DNA of 43,860 bases from positions 1 through 43,860 of the forward strand of contig JAFQOI010000013.1 of the NCBI GenBank assembly GCA_017403285.1, in the 5' to 3' direction. This DNA comes from a bacterium. Lineage in GTDB: Bacteria > Cyanobacteriota > Vampirovibrionia > Gastranaerophilales > Gastranaerophilaceae. The notes beneath the pieces were generated by a model. It searched no databases, was not told the DNA's origin, and worked only from the letters and a program-made list of their open reading frames with translations. Position numbers and translations under genes: made by a program. Within the stretch, counting starts at the first letter, position 1. Each line of letters opens with the position of its first letter. Positions 15,807 through 41,643 of the stretch are shown here, one piece after another.

Positions 15807-15835
15807 TTGACATATTTAGACGGCGGGTGTATACT
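15807..15835 (+). promoter_or_regulatory. Early promoter
   Basis: TTGACA (15807-15812), 17-base spacer, TATACT (15830-15835). The spacer contains TTTAGACGG, a half-site of the 11-copy dyad element found downstream. Confidence 0.72.
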
Positions 15836-15885: not shown

Positions 15886-16404
15886 ATGAAACAGTACACC
15901 TTTAACAGAACAGACAGCGGAATTATTGGAAAAGCTTTTGAAATGGCAATTAAGGACGCACTTAGACGGCGGAATGCGGACAAAGTAAGTCCCTGCGGAA
16001 CAGCTGATTTTCGTTATAATGCGAAAAACTACGACACAAAACAGAATGGTTCAGTTATCCGCTACGCTGAACAGTCCCGCTATATTAAAGGTTCAAACCG
16101 CGTTATCTACGCAACGCACATTGCGCACACAATGACGGACATTGACGCGGACACGGTAGGCGTTACAATCGACTTACAAGGTACTGACTTCTTCTGTGTT
16201 GATCGTAAAGAGTTTATTGACTTCTTAATCTCTATCGGCTGTGTAAAGCTCAACGCAAGCAGAGGAACGGTCAACATACAAACAGTATATAACTACAAGA
16301 AAGACGCCTATCATGGCAAGAAGGGGAAGTTGATAGAAGCCTGGGCAAGCGAACATTACCTGGACGATGAAGTTATAGATGCCATATGGGAAGCCCTCTC
16401 TTGA
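15886..16404 (+). CDS. Putative PD-(D/E)XK-type nuclease-like early protein
   Basis: 172 residues, standard code, GC-richer than its neighbours. The N-terminal 55 residues have the spacing of a PD-(D/E)XK nuclease core: E19 in GKAFEMAIKDAL, D41 in GTADFRY, then D50-x-K52 in YDTKQNG. The rest is mixed alpha/beta. It is first in a unit with its own TTGACA promoter; GGAAG precedes ATG 15886. The stop codon lies in a GC-rich hairpin that is followed by a hammerhead ribozyme. The nuclease assignment is a motif-based inference and could be wrong. Confidence 0.5.
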   Translation: MKQYTFNRTDSGIIGKAFEMAIKDALRRRNADKVSPCGTADFRYNAKNYDTKQNGSVIRYAEQSRYIKGSNRVIYATHIAHTMTDIDADTVGVTIDLQGTDFFCVDRKEFIDFLISIGCVKLNASRGTVNIQTVYNYKKDAYHGKKGKLIEAWASEHYLDDEVIDAIWEALS

Positions 16405-16413
16405 GAGCTTCCC
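16389..16413 (+). other. Stable hairpin at the end of the first early gene
   Basis: GGGAAGC...GCTTCCC with an inner CTCTC/GAGAG arm spans the TGA stop and is not followed by a U-run. It would become the 3' end of the upstream mRNA after cleavage by the adjacent ribozyme and could protect it. Confidence 0.5.
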
Positions 16414-16414
16414 A

Positions 16415-16462
16415 CGGCTCAGCCGGTATGAGTCCGGCTCTGATGAGCAAGAGCGAAAGCCG
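16415..16462 (+). ncRNA. Hammerhead ribozyme (type III)
   Basis: All invariant core elements are present in order. Stem III 5' strand CGGC (16415-16418), then U-C with cleavage expected after C16420. Stem I is AGCCGG (16421-16426) with CCGGCT (16434-16439), loop of 7. CUGAUGA is at 16440-16446. Stem II is GC/GC (16447-16448 with 16453-16454) with an AAGA loop. GAAA is at 16455-16458. Stem III 3' strand is GCCG (16459-16462). Stem II is unusually short. Cleavage would separate the transcripts of the genes at 15886-16404 and 16489-16869. Confidence 0.85.
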
Positions 16463-16488
16463 AACATAAAGAAAGGAAGGAATGACCT

Positions 16489-16869
16489 ATGATCGACATT
16501 ATCAAACTGATTGACGAACGCTTTGAAGCTATTACACAGGCGCGCAATGAAGCAATAGAGGAATGCGCGCAAGCTACATCTTTAAACATTTACCAGATAA
16601 GAAAGAGCTTGGAGAAGAAGAAAGAAGAAGCTGAAAACGCCTATAATACAGCTTATGATGAGTATGAAGAGTTAAATAGCCTTTATGAGCTATTGGAATC
16701 ACAAGGCGCTTCTGATAGCGATTTAGATGAAGTCGAAGAAGAATGTGATGAAGCTTACGATAGGAAAATAAAAACCGAAGATATATACGAGCTATATGCT
16801 GATGCCTTGGAAATGATAATCAAACTTGAAGATATATTGGAATCAATAGAAGCTTTAGAGGGGAGATAG
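16489..16869 (+). CDS. Acidic coiled-coil early protein
   Basis: 126 residues, almost entirely helical, rich in Glu/Lys/Asp with heptad-like repeats from residue 35 to 125; probably a coiled coil. GGAAGG lies 9 bases before ATG 16489, within the 3' product of the hammerhead ribozyme. It ends with TAG, the only clear TAG stop among the early genes, located in the loop of the terminator at 16859-16882. If TAG were suppressed late, translation would continue through the terminator. Function unknown. Confidence 0.65.
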   Translation: MIDIIKLIDERFEAITQARNEAIEECAQATSLNIYQIRKSLEKKKEEAENAYNTAYDEYEELNSLYELLESQGASDSDLDEVEEECDEAYDRKIKTEDIYELYADALEMIIKLEDILESIEALEGR

Positions 16870-16882
16870 TCCCCTCTTTTTA
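16859..16882 (+). terminator. Terminator overlapping TAG stop
   Basis: GAGGGGA / TCCCCTC stem followed by TTTTTATT; the TAG stop codon of the upstream gene is in the hairpin loop. Confidence 0.75.
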
Positions 16883-16891
16883 TTCTTTGGT

Positions 16892-16914
16892 TTTTAGACG
16901 GCTGCCGTCTAAAA
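16892..16914. repeat. Dyad element copy 1 (variant GGC/GCC)
   Basis: TTTTAGACGGC-T-GCCGTCTAAAA, perfect 11-bp arms. The inner bases differ from the common copy but the pairing is kept. Confidence 0.85.
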
Positions 16915-16921
16915 TAGGGGC

Positions 16922-16950
16922 TTTACAAAACGCATTTTATATGATATCAT
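16922..16950 (+). promoter_or_regulatory. Early promoter
   Basis: TTTACA (16922-16927), 17-base spacer, TATCAT (16945-16950), directly downstream of dyad copy 1. Confidence 0.55.
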
Positions 16951-16981
16951 ATAATAGAAATTAGGAAAGGAATAATGAACA

Positions 16982-17161
16982 ATGTTAAAAGAATTTGTAT
17001 CTGATATGAAAGAATGGTTTTGTAATGACCATATACGCACACGGCGCGGACGCATTAGGGCTATGAGCTTGCTATGGTGGGTTATTAGAACGCTACAAGC
17101 TACGGCTGTTATCGCAGTTCTGTATGTGTGGTATTGTATGATGTGGCTTGCGTTTGTATGA
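16982..17161 (+). CDS. Small membrane protein
   Basis: 59 residues: a charged, Arg-rich N-terminal half (HIRTRRGRIRAMS) followed by one hydrophobic segment rich in Trp, Tyr and Val (LLWWVIRTLQATAVIAVLYV ... WLAFV). A single-pass membrane protein with a cytoplasmic basic part is likely. AAAGGA lies 10 bases before the ATG. It is followed by the gene at 17201 without a terminator, so the two form one unit. Confidence 0.6.
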   Translation: MLKEFVSDMKEWFCNDHIRTRRGRIRAMSLLWWVIRTLQATAVIAVLYVWYCMMWLAFV

Positions 17162-17200
17162 GCTATAAATAAAAGCTAGCTAAAGAAAGGAAGTAATTAA

Positions 17201-17431
17201 ATGAATCTTAAAGAAGCTGTTATATATGGAATTAAAATGGGGATGGAGACTTTTAGCATAAGACATTTTAAATATAATGGGCACTGTTTTGAGCAAAGCT
17301 TAGAAACAATTTTAGAATTTATTCAAGGCTATGAAGATTGTATTCCAATTACTTGTTATTATGGAAGCTGGGATTCTGACCGTCCAACTCATTGTCATAT
17401 TTCGTATAAATTAAAAGAAGAAAGTCTTTAA
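17201..17431 (+). CDS. Small early protein of unknown function
   Basis: 76 residues, ATG 17201 after GAAAGGAAG. Mixed helix/strand, rich in His, Tyr and Cys (FKYNGHCFEQ ... CYYGSWDSDRPTHCHISYK). The C- and H-containing C-terminal part could bind a metal, but there is no defined motif. The stop TAA is in a hairpin terminator (AAAGTCTTTAAGACTTTCTTTTTT). Confidence 0.6.
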   Translation: MNLKEAVIYGIKMGMETFSIRHFKYNGHCFEQSLETILEFIQGYEDCIPITCYYGSWDSDRPTHCHISYKLKEESL

Positions 17432-17449
17432 GACTTTCTTTTTTCTAAA

Positions 17450-17476
17450 AAAATTAGACGCACTGCGTCTAATTTT
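17450..17476. repeat. Dyad element copy 2 (variant GCA/TGC)
   Basis: AAAATTAGACGCA-C-TGCGTCTAATTTT, perfect 13-bp arms; compensatory change relative to other copies. Confidence 0.85.
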
Positions 17477-17491
17477 AAGTCAAAGTTTTTC

Positions 17492-17520
17492 TTGCTTTTT
17501 TTAAAATTTTTTGGTATAAT
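17492..17520 (+). promoter_or_regulatory. Early promoter
   Basis: TTGCTT (17492-17497), 17-base spacer, TATAAT (17515-17520). Confidence 0.6.
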
Positions 17521-17553
17521 TTAATCAAGAAATGAGGAAAGGAAATTAAAAAA

Positions 17554-17997
17554 ATGACTATTTATTTTGATATGGATGGAACTTTGGCAGACCTTTACAA
17601 TGTAGACGGATGGCTTGAAAAATTGCGCTCGTTTGATAGTCAGCCCTATGAAGAAGCTGAACCGCTGTGTGACCTGTCGTATCTTGCGCGCCTGCTGAAT
17701 TTTTTGCAAAAAAATGGACATGATATTGGTATTATTTCTTGGCTTTCAAAAGACGCTACAGCTGAATATGATAAAGCTGTTAGAATTTCTAAAAAAAGAT
17801 GGCTCGCAAAACATTTGCCGTCTGTGGTGTGGGATGAAATTCATTTAGTAAAATATGGTACTCCAAAACATTTTTGTTGTCAAGATAATTCTGGAATTTT
17901 ATTTGATGATAACGAAGATGTGAGAAGATTGTGGGATAAAAGAGGAAAAAGTTTTTCAGAAAATGATATTATTGAAGTTTTGAAAGAACTTCTTTAA
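17554..17997 (+). CDS. HAD-superfamily phosphatase
   Basis: 147 residues. Motif I is YFDMDGTLADL at residues 4-14, with both Asp residues that form and act on the phospho-aspartate intermediate; motif II lies near IISWLSKD (about residue 65-72), a Lys follows in RISKKRWLAK, and the acidic motif IV is ILFDDNEDV near 119-127. The size is that of small 5'-nucleotidase-like HAD proteins in phages, so a nucleotide or small-phosphate substrate is plausible. The unit has its own promoter and a GC-rich terminator (about 18022-18058). Confidence 0.75.
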   Translation: MTIYFDMDGTLADLYNVDGWLEKLRSFDSQPYEEAEPLCDLSYLARLLNFLQKNGHDIGIISWLSKDATAEYDKAVRISKKRWLAKHLPSVVWDEIHLVKYGTPKHFCCQDNSGILFDDNEDVRRLWDKRGKSFSENDIIEVLKELL

Positions 17998-18021
17998 TAT
18001 AAAAATTCCTTTCTTGTGTGG

Positions 18022-18058
18022 AGAAGTCGGGGCAGAAATGTCCCGATTTCTTTTTTTT
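18022..18058 (+). terminator. Terminator after HAD gene
   Basis: GAAGTCGGG...CCCGATTTC hairpin followed by eight T residues. Confidence 0.75.
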
Positions 18059-18068
18059 GGAATTTTAT

Positions 18069-18087
18069 TTAGACGTCTTACGTCTAA
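18069..18087. repeat. Dyad element copy 3
   Basis: TTAGACGT-CTT-ACGTCTAA, just upstream of the promoter at 18106. Confidence 0.85.
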
Positions 18088-18105
18088 TTTTTCTGCAAAA
18101 AATGA

Positions 18106-18134
18106 TTGACTATAAGATTAAAATATATTATACT
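18106..18134 (+). promoter_or_regulatory. First of two tandem promoters
   Basis: TTGACT (18106-18111), 17-base spacer, TATACT (18129-18134). Confidence 0.65.
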
Positions 18135-18139
18135 ATAAT

Positions 18140-18255
18140 TGTTCCAAGGGAAGGGAACAAAAATTAAAAATATAGGTAAGCAGTTTTAGCATCCTTTCTG
18201 CGAAAATCCCTTCCCAAGGAATCTCCAAAAAAACTTGAAAAAAGTTGAAAAAAGG
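18140..18255 (+). ncRNA. Possible short structured RNA/leader between tandem promoters
   Basis: No ORF. The start GTTCCAAGGGAAGGGAAC can fold alone or pair with TCCCTTCCCAAGGAA about 60 bases later, giving two competing structures. A GTTCCAAGGGAAC hairpin also starts the transcript at about 23052. Whether a separate RNA ends here is not shown. Confidence 0.35.
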
Positions 18256-18257
18256 GG

Positions 18258-18286
18258 TTGACAAAAAACCAAAAGTTTGGTATAAT
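18258..18286 (+). promoter_or_regulatory. Second tandem promoter
   Basis: TTGACA (18258-18263), 17-base spacer, TATAAT (18281-18286). Confidence 0.72.
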
Positions 18287-18326
18287 AAAAACATCAAAGG
18301 GGGACAGGAACTCCCGAAAAAATAAA

Positions 18327-18375
18327 AGGGTTGCGACCAACGCAGTAGGCGCGAAAGCGCAGAAAGGAAACTAAA
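18327..18375 (+). promoter_or_regulatory. Conserved leader motif GGGTTGCGACC
   Basis: The leader has AAAGGGTTGCGACCAACGCA followed by a GCGCGAAAGCGC hairpin and the ribosome site. The same GGGTTGCGACC-(x)-A-C-CGCA block precedes the paralogous gene at 24722. Confidence 0.5.
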
Positions 18376-18732
18376 ATGACGAACAGGAACTTTTTTGAAC
18401 TCGTAGCTGCTGGCACTCTGAATGAGGAAGTTATCGCTCACGCTGTGGCGCAGATTGAGAAAATGGATGCTACTAACGCAAAGCGAAAAGAGAAACCTTC
18501 CAAAACTGCTGTTGCTAATGAGCCTATTAAACAGGCAATTATGGATTTTATTACTGGTCGAAATGAAATCTGTATCGCAAGCGCAGTGGCGGAAGCTGTA
18601 GAAATCAGCGTACAGAAAGCATCTTCTTTGCTGAATCAGTTGGCGGAAGATGGAAAACTCACCAAGACCGAGGTCAAAGTCCCCAAAAAGGGTTTGCAGA
18701 AAGCATATGGACTGGTTGAGGTTGGGGAATAA
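18376..18732 (+). CDS. Winged-helix-like early DNA-binding protein, paralogue of 24722-25093
   Basis: 118 residues. The N-terminal FFELVAAGTLNEEVIAHA block matches MMEMVAAGKMNEEIQEMA of the protein at 24722-25093. The middle (residues 55-100: PIKQAIMDFITGRNEICIAS ... SLLNQLAEDGKLTKTE) has the look of a small winged helix, and the C-terminus is KGLQKAYGLVEV versus KGTQKGYIVVE. Both genes have tandem promoters and the same leader motif. High-expression signals suggest an abundant DNA-binding or histone-like regulator. Function is inferred only. Confidence 0.6.
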   Translation: MTNRNFFELVAAGTLNEEVIAHAVAQIEKMDATNAKRKEKPSKTAVANEPIKQAIMDFITGRNEICIASAVAEAVEISVQKASSLLNQLAEDGKLTKTEVKVPKKGLQKAYGLVEVGE

Positions 18733-18766
18733 TCCCCAACCCACAAAAAAGAAAGGAGAAAATTAA

Positions 18767-19021
18767 ATGAAAATTTATCTTGTTATGGACGCAATCAACG
18801 GAAAAGATTACAGGGTATTTACTATGAAGAATGACGCAAAAAACTTTATTCTAAAACAATATGAAAGTTTTTTGAAGTGGGAAAAAGAAAATTTTCCAGA
18901 AATGGAACAAGTGATTGATATGGAAAAAGCAAAAGTATATTTCAAAGAAATAAATGGTGTTGAAGATTTTATGTATATTGAAGAATTAACACTAGATGAC
19001 TTTTCAGATATAGAATGGTAA
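18767..19021 (+). CDS. Small acidic early protein
   Basis: 84 residues, second gene of the 18376 unit (34-base gap, AGGAGA before the ATG, no terminator between them). Starts MKIYLVMDAINGKDYRVFTM, then a helix rich in Lys/Glu, ending acidic DDFSDIEW. Not recognised. A GAGGG...CCCTC hairpin with a T-run follows (about 19032-19058). Confidence 0.6.
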   Translation: MKIYLVMDAINGKDYRVFTMKNDAKNFILKQYESFLKWEKENFPEMEQVIDMEKAKVYFKEINGVEDFMYIEELTLDDFSDIEW

Positions 19022-19067
19022 CAATTAAATTGAGGGGAGAGATTCTTCCCTCTTTTTTCAGAAAATT

Positions 19068-19090
19068 ATTTAGACGTTTTACGTCTAAAT
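19068..19090. repeat. Dyad element copy 4
   Basis: ATTTAGACGT-TTT-ACGTCTAAAT, perfect 10-bp arms. Confidence 0.85.
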
Positions 19091-19106
19091 TTTATTTAAG
19101 TTGGGG

Positions 19107-19135
19107 TTGAATTTTTAAGATTGATGTGATATAAT
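19107..19135 (+). promoter_or_regulatory. Early promoter
   Basis: TTGAAT (19107-19112), 17-base spacer, TATAAT (19130-19135). Confidence 0.65.
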
Positions 19136-19166
19136 TTAGGTACAGTAAAAAAAAGGAGAAAGAAAA

Positions 19167-19388
19167 ATGAAAATTACTGATAGATTCAAAAGAAAAGAAA
19201 CGGCATACAGAGATGTTGAAGCAGGTGTAGTATTCAAATATGAAAATGAATATTATATGACAACTGAAGAGATTACAGACAATTATGATGATGTTTGTAA
19301 TTGTGTAAATCTTGGAAGCGGAGAACTTCTTAGTTTTGATATTGATACTATGGTAGAAGTTCTTGATGCAGAATTGGTTATTAAATAA
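19167..19388 (+). CDS. Small conserved early protein
   Basis: 73 residues after AAGGAG. Beta-rich small domain with FKYENEYYMTTEEI and ending EVLDAELVIK, a type of small protein common in Bacillota phages but without known function. It is followed by a degenerate small gene (19404-19544). Confidence 0.6.
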   Translation: MKITDRFKRKETAYRDVEAGVVFKYENEYYMTTEEITDNYDDVCNCVNLGSGELLSFDIDTMVEVLDAELVIK

Positions 19389-19403
19389 AGGAGAAAAATT
19401 AAA

Positions 19404-19544
19404 ATAGCAAAGTTTAGAATTTGAGGAATGATTGACATTGAAGTTGATGTTGAATCTGAGGAAGAAGCACTGGAAGGGTTTGAGATTGGTCTTGATGATG
19501 TGGTATCATCTTGTATTGATATTGAACTGATTGAGGAAGATTAA
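19404..19544 (+). pseudogene. Degenerate copy of small acidic protein (ATA start, in-frame TGA)
   Basis: AAGGAG is followed, at normal spacing, by ATA-GCA-AAG-TTT-AGA-ATT-TGA-GGA rather than an ATG ORF. Reading through gives AKFRI-x-GMIDIEVDVESEEEALE, clearly related to the intact gene at 21650 (KFYRIYGYVEVQVEANSEEEALE). So the start is ATA where ATG is expected, and a TGA replaces an aromatic residue, possibly Trp (TGG). An internal ATG at 19428 has no well-spaced ribosome site. Most likely a decayed gene; readthrough of TGA is an unproven alternative. Confidence 0.55.
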
Positions 19545-19580
19545 AGAAATTGGGGAAGTCTCTTGACTTCCTCCCCGCGA

Positions 19581-19601
19581 TTTAGACGTCTTACGTCTAA
19601 A
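19581..19601. repeat. Dyad element copy 5
   Basis: TTTAGACGT-CTT-ACGTCTAAA, perfect 9-bp arms. Confidence 0.85.
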
Positions 19602-19619
19602 CAAAATCAAAATTAAAAC

Positions 19620-19648
19620 TTGATTTTTTAGAAAATTTTTGATATAAT
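19620..19648 (+). promoter_or_regulatory. Early promoter
   Basis: TTGATT (19620-19625), 17-base spacer, TATAAT (19643-19648). Confidence 0.65.
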
Positions 19649-19682
19649 TTATTTAGAAAATAAAAGAAAGGAATTTTATCTT

Positions 19683-20024
19683 ATGTCTAAAAAACTTGAC
19701 GATGCACTCCGTGAAAAATGGGTAAAACTTACAAAAGAATGGTTGGAATCTATTGATGAAGAAGCAATCAAATACAAAACAAATGAGATTTGTATTCCAA
19801 CGGTTGATGAAGCAGGTAATGATAAATATGTTCAGTTTGTTATAAAAATTCCTAAAGGTTCAAGAGATGGTGAAGAGTTTGACGGTTATTCTATGAGAGA
19901 GGAATACGAAATCAAACTGAAAGAGAAAGCCGAAAAGGAAAAGAAAGCTGCAGAGGCAAAAGCAAAAAAGATTGAGAGAGATAAAAAAATAAGAGAAAAG
20001 AAAACAAAAGAAAAGGAAGAGTAA
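19683..20024 (+). CDS. Early protein with Lys/Glu-rich tail, paralogue of 23096-23428
   Basis: 113 residues. The N-terminal 75 residues form a small mixed domain (EICIPTVDEAGNDKYVQFVI). The C-terminal 40 residues are an uninterrupted charged helix containing AEAKAKKIERDK, also present in the protein at 23096-23428; both share a preceding REEY-x-x-K block. The tail could bind nucleic acid or form a coiled coil. GAAAGGAA precedes the start. The TAA is followed by a weak TCTTCC...GGAAGA hairpin with TTTTTT. Confidence 0.6.
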   Translation: MSKKLDDALREKWVKLTKEWLESIDEEAIKYKTNEICIPTVDEAGNDKYVQFVIKIPKGSRDGEEFDGYSMREEYEIKLKEKAEKEKKAAEAKAKKIERDKKIREKKTKEKEE

Positions 20025-20041
20025 TCTTCCTTTTTTAATCT

Positions 20042-20064
20042 ATTTAGACGTAGTACGTCTAAAT
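20042..20064. repeat. Dyad element copy 6
   Basis: ATTTAGACGT-AGT-ACGTCTAAAT, six bases upstream of the TTGACA box. Confidence 0.85.
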
Positions 20065-20070
20065 AAAGAA

Positions 20071-20099
20071 TTGACAAATCACGCCTTATGCGTTATAAT
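20071..20099 (+). promoter_or_regulatory. Early promoter
   Basis: TTGACA (20071-20076), 17-base spacer, TATAAT (20094-20099). Confidence 0.75.
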
Positions 20100-20132
20100 G
20101 TATATGTAAATTAAAGAAAGGAAAAATAAAAA

Positions 20133-20600
20133 ATGTTAGCAAGTTATATAATCTTCAATGTATTAAATGTAATTATCCAAACAGTTAAATCCATTGTTAC
20201 CATTAAATGTAATAAATGGGTTGCCGCAATCGTCAATGCAGTTGCTTATGGTTTATATACATACATCATTGTACTAACCGCAACAGATATGAATCTTTGG
20301 GCAAAAATTATTATCACTGCCTTGGCGAACTTAGTTGGCGTTTTTGTAGTAAAGTTTGTTGAAGAAAAGAAAAGAAAAGATAAAATGTGGCTTGTTAAAA
20401 TGACTATTCCTACTGAATATGCAAAGCAAGCAAAATATTTGTTAGACCAAGCAAAAATTCCTTTTACTTACTATGATTTGAATAAATATTTTGTTTTTGA
20501 TACTTTTTGTGAAACCCAAGCCGAAACCACAAATGCAACTAAGATTTGCACTGCTTGTCAGGGTAAGGCTTTTGCAAGCGAAAACAAACTTAACTTATAA
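20133..20600 (+). CDS. Membrane protein with cytoplasmic C-terminal domain
   Basis: 155 residues. Three hydrophobic segments (about 4-24, 30-48, 52-76) are followed by a charged KRKDK stretch and a soluble domain of some 70 residues (MTIPTEYAKQAKYLLDQAKI, then PFTYYDL) that looks like a small alpha/beta module. The topology would place the C-terminus in the cytoplasm. GAAAGGAA precedes ATG 20133. The 3' end overlaps the convergent homing endonuclease gene by 6 bases within a perfect dyad (AAACTTAACTT/AAGTTAAGTTT). Function unknown. Confidence 0.65.
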   Translation: MLASYIIFNVLNVIIQTVKSIVTIKCNKWVAAIVNAVAYGLYTYIIVLTATDMNLWAKIIITALANLVGVFVVKFVEEKKRKDKMWLVKMTIPTEYAKQAKYLLDQAKIPFTYYDLNKYFVFDTFCETQAETTNATKICTACQGKAFASENKLNL

Positions 20601-20611
20601 GTTAAGTTTGT
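20585..20611. terminator. Bidirectional terminator of convergent genes
   Basis: Dyad CAAACTTAACTT ... AAGTTAAGTTTG contains the stop codons of both the membrane protein (plus) and the homing endonuclease (minus) and has T-rich flanks on the plus side. Confidence 0.55.
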
Positions 20612-21317
20612 TTTCTAAATATTCCCAATTAATTTTATCAAAATCATAATAGGGAATTTCTATTAGTATTATATTGTTATCTTTACAATACTATCTCTTC
20701 ATCTCATCGTGCGCCCGGGGTGAATTTTTCCATACTCCATGTAGTGCATTTTCATCATAGTGTTGAATTCCCTAATATTCTACTAAGCACTTTAATGTGT
20801 TATCATCATTATAAATAGCAAAATCAAAATACAGGTAATTCTTATCCTTTAAGTCGGGAAAATAAAACTAAGTTTTATATGGTATATTGTGATCAAAAAG
20901 AATACTATTTATCTTTTGTTCTCCTTTTGAGCGCACACAACCACATGAAACAATGTCCCCTCTTTTTAAACTATTAGAATTAACATAAGCAATATTTCCA
21001 CAATCACACTTACATTTCCACATAATACATCCGTCGCTACTTCTCAACTCGGTCTTTTCCAAAACCAAAAGTTTTCCATATTTGTTACCAATAATATTTT
21101 TGGCCATCATTTTTGACATCACTTCTGCGCGTTTGCAACCACAAGAAGTCGTATGCCCATTGGTTAAATTAGAAGTCGGGACAATTGTTTTGTTACCACA
21201 TTCGCATTCGCAATACCAAAACACTTTATCAGGATTGGGTCTTTGTTCTCTGGGTAATTCTCCAATAACTTTTAGTTTACCAAAGGTCATATTAGTTAAG
21301 TCTCTTTTTGCTCCCAT
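20595..21317 (-). CDS. Homing endonuclease, zinc-finger plus VSR/EDxHD-like nuclease, TAG-recoded
   Basis: 240 residues with TAG at 20868, 20772 and 20691. The N-terminal 150 residues hold two repeats of a Cys-rich module (W-x-C-x-C-x-CGN...SCGC), as in phage endonucleases. The C-terminus is a compact nuclease domain: FDFAIYND, then LVEY-TAG-GIQHY, then DEMKR-TAG-YCKDN and IEIPY. In this family the motif is EYQG-x-QHY, so the TAG stands exactly at a conserved Gln. It has a strong AGGAGG and is the only minus-strand gene in the early array, probably a mobile insertion using the phage's late code. Confidence 0.78.
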
Positions 21318-21405
21318 TTTTGTTGCCTCCTTTTTTTTGTTCTATATATAAGTGGAAAGATTGAAACTAAAATACATAAAATTGAGGCAACTTTGTACCC
21401 GGCGC

Positions 21406-21427
21406 CGAGTTAGTTCAGGCTAACTCG
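21406..21427. promoter_or_regulatory. Dyad element CGAGTTAG-N6-CTAACTCG
   Basis: Perfect 8-bp dyad upstream of the TTGACA promoter at 21458, related to the dyad at 15705-15722; it stands where the other units have the TTTAGACGT dyad. Confidence 0.5.
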
Positions 21428-21457
21428 AATTTTCTCAAAAAAGTTTTGAAAAAAGTA

Positions 21458-21486
21458 TTGACATATACGGCGCGATGTGGTATTAT
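21458..21486 (+). promoter_or_regulatory. Early promoter
   Basis: TTGACA (21458-21463), 17-base spacer, TATTAT (21481-21486). Drives a four-gene unit. Confidence 0.7.
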
Positions 21487-21517
21487 ATACTTGCCGAAAG
21501 GGAAAGGAGAATGTTAA

Positions 21518-21649
21518 ATGAGTTTTTGCGATAAGATAAATTGTGGTTACTACTACAAGGGCGAAAATGACAGATTCCCTTGTTGCCACTTTGAAGGCCC
21601 AGATGGTTGGGCGCCGTGTGAGCAGGATGAGTATGAGGAGGAAGAGTAA
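21518..21649 (+). CDS. Small Cys-rich protein
   Basis: 43 residues, ATG 21518 after GGAAAGGAGA. Five Cys (SFCDKINCGYY ... PCCHFEG ... APCEQ) and an acidic tail; it may bind a metal. The TAA is joined to the ATG of the next gene (TAAATG). Confidence 0.5.
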   Translation: MSFCDKINCGYYYKGENDRFPCCHFEGPDGWAPCEQDEYEEEE

Positions 21650-21784
21650 ATGAAATTTTATCGGATTTATGGCTATGTGGAAGTACAAGTAGAGGCAAAT
21701 AGTGAAGAGGAAGCACTGGAAATCTTTGAAGATGAATGTATTATTGATGAAGTAATGAGTGCTATTGATATTGAGGAGGAGTAA
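21650..21784 (+). CDS. Small acidic protein, intact relative of 19404-19544
   Basis: 44 residues, MKFYRIYGYVEVQVEANSEE then an acidic helix. GAGGAGGAAGAG in the preceding gene supplies the ribosome site. The SEEEALE helix occurs in many small phage proteins; function unknown. Confidence 0.5.
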   Translation: MKFYRIYGYVEVQVEANSEEEALEIFEDECIIDEVMSAIDIEEE

Positions 21785-21973
21785 ATGAAAAAAATTGTCG
21801 AAGTAAATGTTTTCTTTGAACTTGAAGTAGAAGAAAAAGAAAATATTCATAATAAAGCATGGGAATATATTGAAGATAATCTTTCTGATGTATTTAGTAT
21901 AGAAGGTAGCGAACTAACCATTTACAATCCAAATGGTGAAAGATATTTTGAAGATGATGAGGAGGAAAAGTAA
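21785..21973 (+). CDS. Small acidic protein
   Basis: 62 residues, ATG immediately after the previous TAA, GGAGGAG as ribosome site. Starts MKKIVEVNVFFELEVEEKEN; similar strand-helix-strand look to the preceding small proteins. Unknown. Confidence 0.55.
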   Translation: MKKIVEVNVFFELEVEEKENIHNKAWEYIEDNLSDVFSIEGSELTIYNPNGERYFEDDEEEK

Positions 21974-21974
21974 A

Positions 21975-22163
21975 ATGATAAGAATCGCAATTTGTCCCAA
22001 TTGTGGCGCAGAACTGGAACAAGACGAATGTTATGATACCAACTCTGAAGGTGATTTTATCGCAAACTATATGATAGGGCATTGCCCCAGTTGCGAAAAA
22101 GAATTCCAGTGGGTGGAAGTTTACGACTATACAGGAGTAGATGAAATTGAGGAAGTCACTTGA
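21975..22163 (+). CDS. Small zinc-ribbon protein
   Basis: 62 residues. ATG 21975 follows GGAGGAAAAG; I prefer it to the upstream in-frame ATG at 21933, which lies in the preceding gene. CPNCGAELEQDECY ... GHCPSCEKEFQW gives two CxxC pairs, a zinc ribbon. The stop TGA is in the terminator GGAAGTCACTTGACTTCCTT. Last gene of the four-gene unit. Confidence 0.65.
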   Translation: MIRIAICPNCGAELEQDECYDTNSEGDFIANYMIGHCPSCEKEFQWVEVYDYTGVDEIEEVT

Positions 22164-22177
22164 CTTCCTTTTTTTAG

Positions 22178-22200
22178 ATTTAGACGTATTACGTCTAAAT
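22178..22200. repeat. Dyad element copy 7
   Basis: ATTTAGACGT-ATT-ACGTCTAAAT. Confidence 0.85.
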
Positions 22201-22216
22201 TTTCTTCAAAAAAATA

Positions 22217-22245
22217 TTGCAAATCTTTCCACTATGTGTTATACT
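22217..22245 (+). promoter_or_regulatory. Early promoter
   Basis: TTGCAA (22217-22222), 17-base spacer, TATACT (22240-22245). Confidence 0.65.
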
Positions 22246-22278
22246 ATGTATGAAGTTAAAGAAAGGAATTTATCAACC

Positions 22279-22944
22279 ATGAAAATTGACCATCGCAAGA
22301 CTTATTACCTCACCATCGACACCGAAACCGCAAACGACATTGACTGCCCTATCGTCTTTGATATCGGCGGTGCTATTCATGATAAACACGGGGAAGTCCT
22401 GGAAACTTTCAGCTTCATCGTGCGTGAAGTGTTCTATGGTATGCCACACCTAATGGAAACCTGCTACTACCAAGCAAAGCTCCCTGCCTATCGTGCGCAA
22501 ATTGCCTGCGGTGAGCGTTGCGTGGTTAGTTGGTATGAAGTAAAAGCCCACATCGCGCACCTGTGCGAAAAGTATGATGTGCGCGCCATCATCGCCCACA
22601 ATATGCGCTTTGACTATCGCTCTACCAACACTACTCAGCGCTATCTGACCTGCTCCAAGTATCGCTACTTCTTCCCCAAGGATGTGGAAATCTGGGATAC
22701 GCTTGCCATGGCTCGTGATACTATCGTAAAACAGAAAACCTATCAGCGTTTCTGTCAAGCTAACGGCTACTGTACCAAGAACGGACAGCCCCGAGCTACT
22801 GCGGAAATCCTTTATCGGTATATCACGGGTGACAATGATTTTGAAGAATCCCATACGGGTTTGGAAGATGTGCTGATTGAAAAGGAAATTTTCGCCAAGT
22901 GTATGGCACAACACAAGAAAATGCGCCGGAGTCCGTGGAAGTAA
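22279..22944 (+). CDS. DnaQ-like 3'-5' exonuclease
   Basis: 221 residues. DEDDh exonuclease motifs are visible: LTIDTETAND (D14, E16), IIAHNMRFDY near residue 110, and ESHTGLEDVLIE near 195-206 with the His and Asp of motif III. It has no polymerase domain, so it is a stand-alone exonuclease acting on DNA or RNA ends. ATG 22279 follows GAAAGGAAT; the upstream in-frame ATG at 22141 lies in the previous gene and is rejected. GC content is higher than in the neighbours. Terminator TCCGTGGAA...TTCCACGGA plus T8 follows. Confidence 0.8.
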   Translation: MKIDHRKTYYLTIDTETANDIDCPIVFDIGGAIHDKHGEVLETFSFIVREVFYGMPHLMETCYYQAKLPAYRAQIACGERCVVSWYEVKAHIAHLCEKYDVRAIIAHNMRFDYRSTNTTQRYLTCSKYRYFFPKDVEIWDTLAMARDTIVKQKTYQRFCQANGYCTKNGQPRATAEILYRYITGDNDFEESHTGLEDVLIEKEIFAKCMAQHKKMRRSPWK

Positions 22945-22970
22945 TTCCACGGATTTTTTTTCGCAAATGG

Positions 22971-22991
22971 TTTAGACGTCTTACGTCTAAA
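22971..22991. repeat. Dyad element copy 8
   Basis: TTTAGACGT-CTT-ACGTCTAAA. Confidence 0.85.
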
Positions 22992-23018
22992 ATTCTTCTA
23001 AAAACTTTTCAAAAACCA

Positions 23019-23047
23019 TTGACATTCTCTCAGGGATATGGTATTAT
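23019..23047 (+). promoter_or_regulatory. Early promoter
   Basis: TTGACA (23019-23024), 17-base spacer, TATTAT (23042-23047); the transcript then begins with a GTTCCAAGGGAAC hairpin. Confidence 0.7.
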
Positions 23048-23095
23048 ATAATCGTTCCAAGGGAACAGAAAAAATTTTGAAAGGGGCAAATCAAT

Positions 23096-23428
23096 ATGAA
23101 AATTGTAGTTGCCAATGCTATTCGTGAACACTATATCAATGCTATTCTTTCCCTGTTTAATGAGGAAGACACTGGAATGATTGCTTCCAATTCTTTCAAC
23201 TTCCCCATTGTTTGGGAAGGTGAGGAAGGATGTGTAGAAATTGTTGTCAAAGTCCCTAAGTATGATGGAGATGAAATTTACGCTTTGCGTGAAGAGTACG
23301 CCCTGAAATGCGCTGAGCGTGAAGCTAAGGCCAAGGAAAAAGCAGAAGCTAAGGCGAAAAAAATCGAGCGTGACAAGGCTGAGCGTGAAGCACGCAAAGC
23401 CGCCAAAGAAAAGGAAAAGGGTGAATAA
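23096..23428 (+). CDS. Early protein with charged helical tail, paralogue of 19683-20024
   Basis: 110 residues. N-terminal mixed domain, then ALREEYALKCAEREAKAKEK and AEAKAKKIERDK, matching the tail of the 19683 gene. GC-richer codons than its paralogue suggest separate acquisition or strong expression. GAAAGGGGC precedes the start; the TAA lies in an AAAAGGGTGAATAACCCTTTT terminator. Confidence 0.6.
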   Translation: MKIVVANAIREHYINAILSLFNEEDTGMIASNSFNFPIVWEGEEGCVEIVVKVPKYDGDEIYALREEYALKCAEREAKAKEKAEAKAKKIERDKAEREARKAAKEKEKGE

Positions 23429-23446
23429 CCCTTTTCTTTTCGATAG

Positions 23447-23467
23447 TTTAGACGTAGTACGTCTAAA
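23447..23467. repeat. Dyad element copy 9
   Basis: TTTAGACGT-AGT-ACGTCTAAA. Confidence 0.85.
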
Positions 23468-23474
23468 TTTTTTC

Positions 23475-23503
23475 TTGACTTAATATATATATTATGTTAT
23501 ACT
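23475..23503 (+). promoter_or_regulatory. Early promoter
   Basis: TTGACT (23475-23480), 17-base spacer, TATACT (23498-23503). Confidence 0.68.
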
Positions 23504-23526
23504 ATATTCTGTTAGGAGGACGATGT

Positions 23527-23835
23527 ATGAAAAAAGATTTTATTTATTTTATCAGAATTGGTGAGCCAAGTGAACGACTTTTCAAAATTGGTACTACCAA
23601 TGATATACGGCGCAGAATGCGCGAACATGAAAAGTATTATGGAAAAAAGGTGATGGTACTTTGGCAAAGTCCAGCCTATTCAAAATGGACAACTTTAAGG
23701 GTTGAGGACAAAATGAAAAATCAATGGATTAAAGAAGGAGTTTTTGAATATTTAAGAAATGATAGATTTTTAATTCCAGAAAATATTAAAGAAATTAAAA
23801 TTAAAGTTAGGAAAGAATATGTGGTGTCAATTTGA
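23527..23835 (+). CDS. T5orf172/GIY-YIG-related small nuclease-like protein
   Basis: 102 residues from ATG 23527, seven bases after AGGAGG; the upstream start at 23494 would include the promoter and is rejected. IYFIRIGEPSERLFKIGTTN followed by DIRRRMREHEKYYG is the signature of the T5orf172 subgroup of GIY-YIG domains. Being only one domain without a DNA-binding extension, it may nick DNA or act with a partner. The TGA lies in the perfect terminator GTGGTGTCAATTTGACACCA plus T7. Confidence 0.68.
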   Translation: MKKDFIYFIRIGEPSERLFKIGTTNDIRRRMREHEKYYGKKVMVLWQSPAYSKWTTLRVEDKMKNQWIKEGVFEYLRNDRFLIPENIKEIKIKVRKEYVVSI

Positions 23836-23857
23836 CACCACTTTTTTTGAAAAAATT

Positions 23858-23878
23858 TTTAGACGTTTTACGTCTAAG
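23858..23878. repeat. Dyad element copy 10
   Basis: TTTAGACGT-TTT-ACGTCTAAG; the last base of the outer arm is changed. Confidence 0.8.
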
Positions 23879-23885
23879 TTAGTTA

Positions 23886-23914
23886 TTGACTCGCGCCGAA
23901 ATGTGTGGTATAAT
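23886..23914 (+). promoter_or_regulatory. Early promoter
   Basis: TTGACT (23886-23891), 17-base spacer, TATAAT (23909-23914). Confidence 0.72.
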
Positions 23915-23944
23915 TTAGATACAAAGTAAGGAAGGAATTAAAAA

Positions 23945-24127
23945 ATGAGAATTGTAAAGTGTGAGAAAATTTTTCTATCGCAGAACGAAGCAGATGTTTG
24001 GGCAAATTTTAATCTGATTCTTGAAGGTTTAGAACGAGGAAGCGAAAGTCCAGATATAGGAAATCTGGTTTGTAAAATTCTAAGTTTGCTTGATAAATTA
24101 TGGGAAGAAATTGAAGATATCGAATAA
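23945..24127 (+). CDS. Small early protein
   Basis: 60 residues, ATG 23945 after GGAAGG. Helical, acidic C-terminus (KLWEEIEDIE). No family recognised. Own promoter, and terminator AAAGGACTTAACAAGTCCTTTTTTT. Confidence 0.55.
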   Translation: MRIVKCEKIFLSQNEADVWANFNLILEGLERGSESPDIGNLVCKILSLLDKLWEEIEDIE

Positions 24128-24167
24128 AAAGGACTTAACAAGTCCTTTTTTTATTTCTCAAAAAAAT

Positions 24168-24188
24168 TTTAGACGTATCACGTCTAAA
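24168..24188. repeat. Dyad element copy 11
   Basis: TTTAGACGT-ATC-ACGTCTAAA. The last copy, followed by the iteron-like region rather than directly by a promoter. Confidence 0.85.
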
Positions 24189-28655: not shown

Positions 28656-29786
28656 TTAAGATTTATTCCAAATAGTGCGCACAATTTGTTCTACTTCTTT
28701 ACTCATTAACCACTCACTCACACTTAATTCTTCATTATCCAGCTTTGAAAACAAAAAACTCTTAATTCCCGATGGAAAATCATATATTTTTTTAGCAAAT
28801 TCTTTACGCGATTTACTATAACATTTATTTTCTTCCCAGGTCTTGTTCGCAAAATTATAAAAATCATCTAAATCCGCAAGAAATTGCTTTGAAATAAATC
28901 GCAAACTTTTTGAAGTATAAGCCAAATAATCATCTAACATATCTTCTTTCAACATTTTTATGAACCGGCGCCGAGTAAGTACTCCATTATTTAAAGCACG
29001 ATGATGAAGTAAATAATCCTCTGATTTAATCTTTATACGATTAAAATTTTTATCACATACTACAAATCCTTCATAATTAGTTAAAGTATTAACAAATTCT
29101 ACACACAGGTCTAAACTTTTTAATAAATAAGATTGAGGAATCTTAATCTCTTTATCATTCTCACAATCTAAATTATATTCATAAATATTAACCGTATCAA
29201 ATCTTTCTTTACCAGAATAATTATTTCTGTGTCCTAAATAATAAATTCGTGCTTCTGGATAATCAACAACTATTTTATTTTCTAGAGAAACCAACTCAAA
29301 CATTATCGTATCTTTAACACAAAAATATTGTCCCAATTCTTCCACACTTTTTCCCAAAACTTCTTCAAATAATTCTCCAAAAGTTTTATTAAGTTCTCCA
29401 ACTGAAACTTCGAAAGCATTAATACCACCGTTGGTACTTAATCTCCACTTTCCATCCCACCAAAGCTTCATCAAAGACCCATCAATTTTTTCCAATACCC
29501 GCGCAGATGACCAATCAATTTCACAAGCATTTTCTTCTCCATAATTAAAAAACTTTGAAAAAGGACGACATACATATTCTGCGCCAGCATCATGAGTTTT
29601 AACAATCACTCCACGAGCTTCTTGAACAATAGGCAGACTCATATCAGATTCATACTGATTATACTTAAACAAAAAATAATTATTCTTCTCTTTAATCTTC
29701 AAACAATATGGCGCACTTTCAAGTTCCTTCATCCAATCTCTATTTTCTTTAATTGCTTTGTTAATAAAATTTAATAGATAATTCAT
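28656..29786 (-). CDS. RNA ligase, T4 Rnl1 type
   Basis: 376 residues, the size of T4 RNA ligase 1. Nucleotidyltransferase motifs are in order: K100 in EKIDGSL (motif I, adenylated lysine), IMFELVS (motif III-like), YEGFVV (motif IV) and RIKIKSEDYL (motif V). EARGVIV upstream of motif I is also typical. The enzyme joins 5'-phosphate and 3'-OH RNA ends, for example cleaved tRNA anticodon loops. It has its own promoter and an AGGAG site. With the kinase-HD and nucleotidyltransferase genes at 32756-34504 it forms an RNA repair set. Confidence 0.85.
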   Translation of the reverse strand: MNYLLNFINKAIKENRDWMKELESAPYCLKIKEKNNYFLFKYNQYESDMSLPIVQEARGVIVKTHDAGAEYVCRPFSKFFNYGEENACEIDWSSARVLEKIDGSLMKLWWDGKWRLSTNGGINAFEVSVGELNKTFGELFEEVLGKSVEELGQYFCVKDTIMFELVSLENKIVVDYPEARIYYLGHRNNYSGKERFDTVNIYEYNLDCENDKEIKIPQSYLLKSLDLCVEFVNTLTNYEGFVVCDKNFNRIKIKSEDYLLHHRALNNGVLTRRRFIKMLKEDMLDDYLAYTSKSLRFISKQFLADLDDFYNFANKTWEENKCYSKSRKEFAKKIYDFPSGIKSFLFSKLDNEELSVSEWLMSKEVEQIVRTIWNKS

Positions 29787-32755: not shown

Positions 32756-33649
32756 TTAATGTGCATTTTTATCTCCTTCGTGTAAAAGCATAAGCTGTTT
32801 CCACATTTCTTCACCTAATCGTGTCTTCCATTTTTTAATTGATTTTTCAGTTTTACTAAAGTAAGGTTGCATATGATAGCAAATCACCGTAGCCATTCGT
32901 TGCATTTCAACATCTTCAAGAAGAGGTTCCATTGAAAGGCAAAGATAACTACCAACATTAGGATGACCATAATAGTGTGCATCTTCAGTTTTCTCGCCTT
33001 TCATCGTATGAAAAGTTTGGGTATAAAGCTTACCATAGTCATGAAAGAGTGCGGCCCGTTTTAGCCATTTTTCATCGGTTTTAATAGCCTTGTATGCCGC
33101 GGCACAGTGGTCTCCCAAACTCATAGAATGATGAGAGTTGTGCTGGTCAAACTGACACATTTTCAAAAATTCATCAAATGCACTAGGAAGTGCAGCATTA
33201 GTGTTATGAATGACTCGAATTGCATTAAAACCTTCGGAAAGGGTAGGCATTTCAAACTGGCAAAGCTGGCGCATGATTACATCTTCAGGCACAACTCGTT
33301 CACGAGAACGATTTTGTTCAAGAATTGTATCCAGCGGTGTAGCCACAACCACACCAACGCAACGCGAAAAAGGGGTTGCCTTGTCAAGAATCGATTTACG
33401 ATTTTTATAAGTCAGATTGGTAGCATCATAAATAACATGAGTACCTTCTTCAAGATACTTAATCGTGCGCGAATGCATGATTTCGAAGACATCGCGCGGA
33501 TTACCCTGAATGGCGGCATCGTCATAAAGTTCTTCACGAATTTCGTCAGAAGATACAATTTCATATTTATCAGAACTCCAAAAAGAATCGGCAAAAGTTG
33601 ATTTGCCGCATCCTGCGGGGCCAATTAGCATAAAAAAATTAGGTTTCAT
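32756..33649 (-). CDS. Polynucleotide kinase with C-terminal HD phosphohydrolase domain
   Basis: 297 residues from ATG 33649 (GGAAG site); the longer frame to 33712 includes the promoter. Kinase: Walker A GPAGCGKST at residues 10-18, SSDEIREELYDD, then THVIYDATNLTYKNRK and QNRSRERVVPEDVI as in T4 Pnk-type 5'-OH kinases. The C-terminal half is an HD domain (HHSMSLGDHC, then ALFHDYGK, then HPNVGSYLC), likely removing 2',3'-phosphates. Together these activities heal RNA ends before ligation. GC-richer than neighbours, suggesting transfer. Domain order is kinase-HD. Confidence 0.83.
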   Translation of the reverse strand: MKPNFFMLIGPAGCGKSTFADSFWSSDKYEIVSSDEIREELYDDAAIQGNPRDVFEIMHSRTIKYLEEGTHVIYDATNLTYKNRKSILDKATPFSRCVGVVVATPLDTILEQNRSRERVVPEDVIMRQLCQFEMPTLSEGFNAIRVIHNTNAALPSAFDEFLKMCQFDQHNSHHSMSLGDHCAAAYKAIKTDEKWLKRAALFHDYGKLYTQTFHTMKGEKTEDAHYYGHPNVGSYLCLSMEPLLEDVEMQRMATVICYHMQPYFSKTEKSIKKWKTRLGEEMWKQLMLLHEGDKNAH

Positions 33650-33683
33650 TCTTTTTATCTTCCTTATTTTATTTTCTACATAT

Positions 33684-33712
33684 ATTATACCAAAAATTTT
33701 AAAAAAAATCAA
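33684..33712 (-). promoter_or_regulatory. Leftward promoter of kinase gene
   Basis: TTGATT (33707-33712), 17-base spacer, TATAAT (33684-33689). Confidence 0.7.
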
Positions 33713-33719: not shown

Positions 33720-33740
33720 AGAGGTCTAAATTAGACCTCT
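33720..33740 (-). terminator. Terminator after nucleotidyltransferase
   Basis: AGAGGTCTAA / TTAGACCTCT stem, TAA stop inside, followed by TTTTAATTTT. Confidence 0.75.
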
Positions 33741-34504
33741 CTAAAAGCCTGACAAAATAAATTAATCAATTCTTTTTCTATCAAATCAATTAACCCATCA
33801 TCAATTGGTGCTGTAAAATTTTGTTTAATTCGTTCTAACACTTCAATTTCTGTTTTTGCAATCTGCCGCGCAGCAGCAAGTTCAAAATCTCCATTTTTAA
33901 TCTTCATTAAATATGGTTTATGATTAGACTTTAAACATTCTCCAAAAGGCATTCCTTTTGTGTAGTTTTCAGCTAACTCGCGCAAACGTACAATATGATG
34001 AAGTTCTTTTGGGTCATATCCAAACTGCGCGATTCGATCTTCTGTCGCAGGAGAGCTATGTTCCATATGTGCCATTTTGTCTTTTGCCATACCGCACATA
34101 CACTTTACACAAAGCATTGGATTATAATGAGCGATGCGTTCAGCATTAGAACGTAAAAAATCTACAAAACCACTATATTCATGATTGTAAAAAAAGTAAT
34201 CTGTGAATAAAATCTCAAGAAAATTTACATTTTGCTTTAAGAAATTCTTTATCATTAAACGCACATCTTTTACGTCGGATTGCGCGCCGTCGTCAAATTT
34301 TACAACGGAGGAATGTGGTTTTACACCAAGAGCGATATCACGCACTGAAGGAATTATAATAGTTTTAGAATCTATATCAGAGTTTTCATTGTAAAGGTCA
34401 TAGTTTTGACTTCCATATAAGCCAGTATAGATTACTTTACAACATTCTTTTAAATATTTATAATGTTCATGCAGCGGCGCGATAATATTTTCACGAGTAG
34501 TCAT
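33731..34504 (-). CDS. Nucleotidyltransferase (Pol beta-type fold)
   Basis: 257 residues. TGLYGSQNYDLYNENSDIDS at residues 27-46 is the GS...DxD signature (G30-S31, D43, D45) of DNA polymerase beta-like nucleotidyltransferases; a helical C-terminal half follows (HHIVRLRELAENYTKGMPFG). Stand-alone members of this group are often encoded beside RNA repair enzymes in phages. Possible substrates are tRNA ends or nucleotides; not known. Start ATG 34504 after AAGGAG. Confidence 0.72.
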   Translation of the reverse strand: MTTRENIIAPLHEHYKYLKECCKVIYTGLYGSQNYDLYNENSDIDSKTIIIPSVRDIALGVKPHSSVVKFDDGAQSDVKDVRLMIKNFLKQNVNFLEILFTDYFFYNHEYSGFVDFLRSNAERIAHYNPMLCVKCMCGMAKDKMAHMEHSSPATEDRIAQFGYDPKELHHIVRLRELAENYTKGMPFGECLKSNHKPYLMKIKNGDFELAAARQIAKTEIEVLERIKQNFTAPIDDGLIDLIEKELINLFCQAFREV

Positions 34505-35643: not shown

Positions 35644-35677
35644 AAAACTTTTTCCTTTCTTTTTATCTTATATAAGT

Positions 35678-35706
35678 ATTATACCAAAAATTTTATTATA
35701 AATCAA
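35678..35706 (-). promoter_or_regulatory. Leftward promoter of DUF262-HNH gene
   Basis: TTGATT (35701-35706), 17-base spacer, TATAAT (35678-35683); it overlaps the last codons of the methylase gene. Confidence 0.7.
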
Positions 35707-38812: not shown

Positions 38813-38886
38813 TGGCAGCAGGTTGAGGATTTGAACCTCAAATGCAAGAATCAAAATCTTGTGTCATGCCTTTTAACGAACCTGCT
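38813..38886 (-). tRNA. tRNA-Gln (UUG)
   Basis: Cloverleaf on the minus strand: acceptor AGCAGGT/ACCTGCT, anticodon stem CAAGA/TCTTG with loop TTTTGAT (anticodon UUG), T-arm TGAGG-TTCAAAT-CCTCA, discriminator G and encoded CCA. The D-stem is weak. It reads CAA/CAG, not UAG, by normal pairing. It lies between the gene at 38890 and the TAG-rich gene. Confidence 0.88.
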
Positions 38887-38889
38887 AAA

Positions 38890-39183
38890 TTAAGCCCAAC
38901 AATCACGCATTAATCTATTATACCAAATAAAATCAGTATGTTTAATATCATCAAGCAAAAGCGCTTCTTCATCTTTTGGTTTATAAACTCCATTAAAATC
39001 AAAAAATTCATCTTGCGCGCCTGCTACAAAATGTCCAGTAATAGGTAAATAATACATTCTCAATTTAGAAAATCTTTCACATAAAATTAAAGCAAAATAA
39101 TAACAATTTCCATTAGTCCAATTACAATCTTTTTTAAATCTACGCTCAATGAAATTTAAAACTTCTGCGGTGAATGTTGGCAT
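38890..39183 (-). CDS. Small Cys-His-Asp protein (cysteine-peptidase-like), paralogue of 42637-42924
   Basis: 97 residues. CNWTNGNCYYFALILCERFS, then YYLPITGHFVAGAQDEFFDF and NGV share order and spacing with the 42637 protein. Conserved Cys at the start of a helix (GNCYYF), then GHFV His, then FDFNG Asp/Asn resemble the triad order of papain- or transglutaminase-like enzymes. No catalytic role is shown. It sits just upstream of tRNA-Gln; its paralogue sits just downstream of tRNA-Leu. Confidence 0.62.
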   Translation of the reverse strand: MPTFTAEVLNFIERRFKKDCNWTNGNCYYFALILCERFSKLRMYYLPITGHFVAGAQDEFFDFNGVYKPKDEEALLLDDIKHTDFIWYNRLMRDCWA

Positions 39184-39199
39184 TTCTTTTTCCTCTTTT

Positions 39200-39330: not shown

Positions 39331-39338
39331 TTAGTCTT

Positions 39339-40868: not shown

Positions 40869-40875
40869 TACTTAA

Positions 40876-40904: not shown

Positions 40905-40908
40905 ATTT

Positions 40909-41568: not shown

Positions 41569-41643
41569 ATTTAAATGCCTCCTAAATTATTAAGACAATT
41601 AGTTAAAACAACGTCACCACGTGAAGGTTTGTCTTTTGACGTC

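Follow-up and report, generated by a model that had tools for sequence, protein, structure and literature searches.

A predicted type III hammerhead ribozyme between two early phage genes and its proposed role in forming single-gene mRNAs

The closest described systems are the hammerhead ribozymes found between genes of phages and prophages, often clustered around single genes (Perreault 2011; PMC3088659). According to the main text of that study, type III members exist among them, a 2-bp stem II is common, and a natural example with a 1-bp stem II cleaves with a k_obs of >1.2/min at 0.5 mM Mg2+; cleavage was seen in vitro for phage hammerheads that flank genes and in cells for the A. tumefaciens set, and the authors propose processing into single-gene mRNAs. 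The type III hammerheads of satellite RNAs (sTRSV, sLTSV; PMC6155905) have the same topology as the element described here and make non-canonical contacts between loops 1 and 2; they process rolling-circle RNA replicons, whereas the present element, whose stem II is shorter, is part of an operon in a DNA phage. The theta (HDV-like) ribozymes of gut phages (PMC10879173) are self-cleaving and have been proposed to act in RNA maturation, as in our reading, but they belong to another class and are associated with tRNA genes, while ours has protein genes on both sides. A 2017 review (PMC6155905) listed the role of hammerheads in prokaryotes as an open question.

The hammerhead reported here is of a kind already known from Perreault 2011 (PMC3088659), and it resembles the set described in the main text of that paper in its type III topology, its 2-bp stem II and its intergenic phage position. 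It differs from that set in a fixed 6-bp stem I, a URNRAGU-like loop 1, an ANNA loop 2, the lack of an evident Watson-Crick pseudoknot between the loops, and, in the subfamily to which it belongs, an abutting hairpin that spans a stop codon; the main text of PMC3088659 uses neither the term “stop codon” nor the term “terminator”. Some members of the subfamily may already be among the supplementary alignments of that paper. Judged against the open-access literature, which leaves priority uncertain, what seems new is a constrained subfamily missed by Rfam, its association with a stop hairpin, and its place amid single-gene early units.

Within the window, by which we mean the whole 43,860-nt stretch of DNA that was analyzed, the element combines the CUGANGA and GAA(A) core in a three-way junction with an open-ended stem III and loops closing stems I and II, the topology of type III (Table 1). 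The predicted cleavage site shows the N16.1–N15.1 pair (here U-A) and an H17 that is not G, and stem II is closed by the G10.1–C11.1 pair. The ribozyme begins 10 nt after the TGA of gene A (16402–16404) and ends 26 nt before the ATG of gene B (16489); the complete core, the three paired stems and this spacing thus agree with what a preliminary description of the locus had reported. That description had also expected modest activity from the 2-bp stem II. This does not follow, and we see no reason to expect weak activity, because the main text of PMC3088659 reports 2-bp stems as common and a 1-bp example as active. Chance motifs with permissive type III dimensions arose at 5e-4 per window, and those with the observed full-size dimensions at 1e-4 per window, in 820 Mb of sequence simulated with the dinucleotide statistics of the window. 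Folding of 16376–16470 gave −35.1 kcal/mol for the hammerhead plus the upstream hairpin vs −36.9 kcal/mol for the predicted optimum, and an alternative fold was 1.4–1.8 kcal/mol more stable in silico than the hammerhead fold; minimum-energy folding is not decisive on this point.

Table 1. Coordinates of the ribozyme, its neighboring genes and signals, the early palindromes, and two natural core variants (window positions unless a contig is named).
Feature	Position	Strand	Details
Type III hammerhead ribozyme	16415–16462	+	predicted cleavage between 16420 and 16421 (H17 = C16420)
Stem III	CGGC 16415–16418 / GCCG 16459–16462, plus U16419-A16458 (16.1–15.1)	+	from sequence
Stem I	AGCCGG 16421–16426 / CCGGCT 16434–16439	+	6 bp, 7-nt loop UAUGAGU; from sequence
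Core CUGAUGA	16440–16446	+	from sequence
Stem II	16447–16454	+	GC-AAGA-GC, 2 bp; from sequence
GAA and A15.1	16455–16458	+	from sequence
Hairpin TGGGAAGCCCTCTCTTGAGAGCTTCCCA	16387–16414	+	spans gene A stop, abuts stem III, −17.7 kcal/mol, no T-tract after it
Putative sigma-70-like promoter	15807–15835	+	TTGACA-17-TATACT, 11/12 matches
Gene A	15886–16404	+	172 aa, cistron upstream of ribozyme
AAGGAAGG	16473–16480	+	likely ribosome-binding site of gene B; from sequence
Gene B	16489–16869	+	126 aa, cistron downstream of ribozyme
Predicted intrinsic terminator	16857–16885	+	overlaps gene B stop; end of transcription unit
Palindromes, first six of eleven	16894, 17454, 18069, 19070, 19582, 20044	+	
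Palindromes, last five of eleven	22180, 22972, 23448, 23859, 24169	+	array 16894–24187
Natural core variants	L003 5935–5984 and L023 1933–1982 (−)		G12U and U4C, respectively

Relatives were sought with a DNA pattern in which AGTCC, CTGATGAGC and GCGAAA alone were prescribed; neither the 5′ strand of stem I nor stem III nor the U-H of the cleavage site was constrained. Viral contigs contained 31 matching stretches and cellular genomes 6. By strict type III criteria 29 of the 31 viral stretches qualify, and all 31 scored at least 54 bits with a covariance model; contig L005 and the genome matches L037, L040 and L041 were treated as chance matches. The members form a compact phage subfamily of about 30 uncultured viral contigs and a few cellular assemblies, and many of the carrier phages are apparently gut phages. 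Every strict member has a 6-bp stem I and a 7-nt loop 1, though the pattern permitted other spacings. Across 24 distinct sequences, standard pairs filled 94.3% of pair cells, both sides had changed in 79 cells, and stems I and III together gave a covariation score of 0.558, compared with 0.113 for shuffled and 0.02–0.12 for slid partners, the highest slid score being 0.115; stem III covaries at five of its six pairs. The U16.1–A15.1 pair is present in all 24, with U16.1 not fixed by the patterns, and position 17 is mostly C, A or U in single cases, and never G. Core letters and the U-H site are, apart from two variants taken up below, exact in the same 24 sequences, part of the core being fixed by the pattern. 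Invariance is no evidence for stem II, for the inner portion of stem I or for this part of the core, all of which the main pattern prescribed.

Scans with relaxed patterns extended this picture. The G10.1–C11.1 pair, invariant in relatives but fixed by the main pattern, is also present in L077 and L078, which were found with the length of stem II left free and have slightly larger stem II loops; the 2-bp stem II itself recurs in relatives, including some from that scan. Leaving loop 1 free gave further type III members among the matches listed. Six of the eight new members from both relaxed scans, again among the matches listed, carry a URNRAGU-like or UANNAGU-like loop 1 (two differ), and four of these six came from scans in which the loop was not fixed. 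The first U of loop 1 and the last A of loop 2 are invariant and neither is pattern-fixed; judged from sequence, these residues would suit a U:A:U triple by analogy with sTRSV and sLTSV. The ribozyme sits between same-strand genes, mostly 5–21 nt past a stop and 9–49 nt ahead of a start, and the genes around it vary widely among loci. Covariation, the exact core and this between-gene position in relatives strongly support the type III assignment made in the preliminary description, and point to a genuine hammerhead that is very probably under selection for cleavage.

At Rfam gathering thresholds, the window element had no match, so the search with the hammerhead III model that had been named as a check on the assignment did not confirm it. 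Relaxed thresholds gave a match to Hammerhead_II (RF02276) alone, at 14.4 bits and with the wrong topology. Both this model and Hammerhead_3 (RF00008) describe the same core as our element, which shares its open-stem-III topology with RF00008. The best Rfam scores in the subfamily were 24.6 bits for L024 (RF00008, cut-off 48.5) and 24.2 bits for L009 (RF02276, cut-off 37), and no member searched reached the gathering score. Because the RF00008 model appears too narrow for the phage subfamily, the miss weakens membership in that model but leaves the hammerhead claim as it stands; this subfamily of phage hammerheads escapes the current Rfam models.

A search of the host genome with RF00008 gave no match, and no second strong ribozyme copy was found in that genome outside the window. 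Model R1, run against 383 genomes of the host family, scored strongly in the window alone, the other scores (≤26.6 bits) being taken as background. From the lack of a second strong host copy and this weak background, we assign the ribozyme to the phage. Searches of named phages found nothing related to the gene A–ribozyme–gene B unit at the nucleotide or protein level; weak blast matches to the ribozyme in MT838164 and MN988542 were rejected on inspection because the core was absent.

The stable hairpin that the preliminary description had placed just upstream of the ribozyme is present (Table 1), and in most relatives a stable hairpin likewise stands directly 5′ of the ribozyme, commonly 0–3 nt away. 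At 16 of 24 assessable sites this hairpin includes the stop codon of the preceding gene. As controls, we took 46 same-strand gene junctions without a ribozyme from the same sequences. The upstream 40 nt folded with a mean of −14.5 kcal/mol at ribozyme sites vs −6.5 kcal/mol at controls (p = 3e-6), the shuffle z was −2.42 vs −0.91 (p = 9e-4), and strong hairpins (z < −2) occurred at 14/24 ribozyme sites vs 8/46 control junctions (p = 7e-4); near-identical loci were removed, and the p-values ignore shared ancestry. In L023, which carries three tandem ribozymes, the order gene, hairpin, ribozyme is repeated in series, each ribozyme being preceded by its own stop hairpin. This enrichment and the L023 series lend comparative support to the earlier suggestion that the hairpin would cap the 3′ end of the gene A mRNA. 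A stop-spanning hairpin, GGTTGGGGAATAATCCCCAACC, is also found at 18700–18770 (+) of the window, with no T-tract and no ribozyme ahead of the next gene (18732). Stop-spanning hairpins at junctions of this kind suggest that the hairpin alone may have a role at mRNA 3′ ends.

Genes A and B form a unit laid out as promoter, gene A, hairpin and ribozyme, gene B, terminator. A homology search with gene A found three viral contigs (L001, L002 and L003); in all, homologues share 59–68% identity in L001, L002, L003 and L020, and 25–32% in L017 and L004. The gene A protein has no Pfam, PHROG or PADLOC family, and its predicted fold is confident (pLDDT 86) and had no Foldseek match in PDB or BFVD. A by-eye likeness to PD-(D/E)xK nucleases was dropped, as this model found no such match. 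L002 carries a gene A homologue without a ribozyme, followed by a stop-spanning hairpin and then by a terminator-like hairpin with a T-tract, and in both L001 and L003 gene A stands between two hammerheads. For gene B, no relative was found among the viral contigs; in L001, L004 and L020, the genes that follow the ribozyme encode mutually related proteins.

From the gene B terminator to about 24200, the early region repeats a series of stop-overlapping terminator, palindrome (TTAGACGN5CGTCTAA), promoter and gene. The plus strand has eleven perfect palindromes, where 0.12 would be expected with up to two mismatches allowed; most of them stand between a stop-overlapping terminator and a sigma-70-like promoter 8–28 nt downstream. 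Arrays of this palindrome recur in L001, L003, L004, L017 and L033, and the arrangement has the look of a regulon in which early units of one gene each share one regulator site. At the gene A–gene B junction, the stop hairpin and the ribozyme stand where other junctions have terminator, palindrome and promoter. The pattern is not universal, as some early genes are co-transcribed without either a ribozyme or a terminator and promoter; the junction 17161/17201, for example, has neither a stop-spanning hairpin nor a ribozyme.

Hammerhead cleavage leaves a 2′,3′-cyclic phosphate on the upstream product and a 5′-OH on the downstream one. Hairpins at 3′ ends block 3′ exonucleases, and 5′-OH ends and terminal stem-loops hinder decay that depends on the 5′ end. 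Beyond the ribozyme anatomy, the covariation, the hairpin association and the layout of the unit, which are shown here, we infer cleavage in the cell, effects of the new ends on stability and a functional purpose: an early dicistronic transcript would be split constitutively into two mRNAs of one gene each, both of them protected. We regard this reading as probable. A single transcript would run from the 15807 promoter through genes A and B to the 16857 terminator, and the ribozyme would cut co-transcriptionally and constitutively after C16420. The gene A mRNA would then end in the stop-spanning hairpin and a 6-nt tail with a 2′,3′-cyclic phosphate and should resist 3′ exonucleases, while the gene B mRNA would begin with a 5′-OH and the 6-bp stem I hairpin and should resist 5′-monophosphate-dependent decay. 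The ribozyme would thus do at this junction what a terminator and a new promoter do at many other early junctions. A ribozyme at a dicistronic junction amid mostly single-gene units, together with the stop hairpin, allows a specific function to be proposed, namely terminator-independent formation of the 3′ and 5′ ends of single-gene phage mRNAs.

The preliminary description had called the element a self-cleaving switch that uncouples two cistrons. Uncoupling has comparative support in the hairpins, the L023 series and the layout of the unit, and is the function best supported here. The switch was dropped because nothing points to control by a ligand: the 48-nt minimal element, with loops of 4 and 7 nt and an invariant, compact architecture, showed neither an aptamer domain nor a ligand-like insert, and no other Rfam riboswitches were found in the region. 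A regulated riboswitch was accordingly rejected for want of a sensor domain. A long shot, in our view, is that the hairpin at the stop codon and the hammerhead work as a single module coupled to translation. While terminating there, a ribosome would hold open the hairpin and the 5′ strand of stem III, and once it left, the hairpin would close and stack on stem III and the ribozyme would cut. If so, trimming to a protected 3′ end would be confined to gene A mRNA that has been translated in full, a translation-gated and again terminator-independent route to single-gene mRNAs.

RNases E and J prefer a 5′-monophosphate. The ends left by the ribozyme are unusual and their fate would be set by host nucleases, and the ribozyme, in every case with the gene A family, stands after the same gene; cleavage might thus speed the decay of the gene A or the gene B mRNA and set unequal protein levels. 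We consider such differential expression unlikely, as strong hairpins abut the cut on the 3′-end side, the other product has stem I as a 5′-terminal stem-loop, and generic processing fits better because the genes around the ribozyme vary so widely.

A distinctly improbable alternative is a non-cleaving, hammerhead-like intergenic RNA, such as a decayed ribozyme kept as an mRNA stabilizer. Four of the 18 consensus hammerheads tested in PMC3088659 were inactive, according to its main text, and two natural core variants exist here. In the upstream copy of L003, G12U (TAAA for GAAA) should abolish activity, while the near-identical L001 is intact, and the first of the three tandem copies in L023 carries U4C. 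These are either decaying copies or errors, and their existence means that single ribozyme copies are dispensable or that the assemblies are at fault. Loss of core bases in close relatives, which had been named as grounds for doubt, is therefore seen in the L003 copy, whereas the core and U-H are otherwise exact in the 24 distinct sequences (the core being partly pattern-fixed), and neither the invariance of U16.1 nor the absence of G at position 17 was imposed by the pattern.

A mobile or hitchhiking RNA element, or one that acts in trans or in RNA ligation or circularization, appears very improbable. The ribozyme adjoins many unrelated genes, as a mobile element might, but no conserved DNA was seen past the ribozyme across loci. 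A phage RNA ligase and kinase could rejoin 2′,3′-cyclic phosphate and 5′-OH ends, and among the proteins of the window are an Rnl1-type RNA ligase, a polynucleotide-kinase-like protein and a nucleotidyltransferase. Against this, an Rnl1-type ligase was found in 0 of 25 other ribozyme-carrying records (the controls gave no signal, and the records may be fragments), and resealing by the phage ligase was set aside on this lack of association. Spliced or circular products were also sought in Perreault 2011 and none were found, according to the main text (PMC3088659). It is hardly credible that the hammerhead match is incidental and that the hairpin before it works as an intrinsic terminator: stop-spanning hairpins are predicted to act as terminators elsewhere in the phage, but here no T-tract follows, the 8 nt after the hairpin hold 0–2 T at nearly all loci, and the ribozyme covaries independently.

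The ligase, the polynucleotide-kinase-like protein and the nucleotidyltransferase make up an RNA-repair-like set on the minus strand at 28656–29786, 32756–33712 and 33731–34504, and the C-terminal half of the polynucleotide-kinase-like protein is weakly similar to Cas3 HD domains. Grouped with this set are five tRNAs at 38813–42342 (−), for Gln, Met, Thr, Asp and Asn, and close to the tRNA genes is a GIY-YIG/NUMOD1 homing endonuclease (40909–41568, −). A restriction-modification pair occupies 34516–36871 (−): a GmrSD_N/HNH protein, whose match to a type II restriction enzyme model has an E of 1e-123, adjoins an EcoRI-type adenine methyltransferase.
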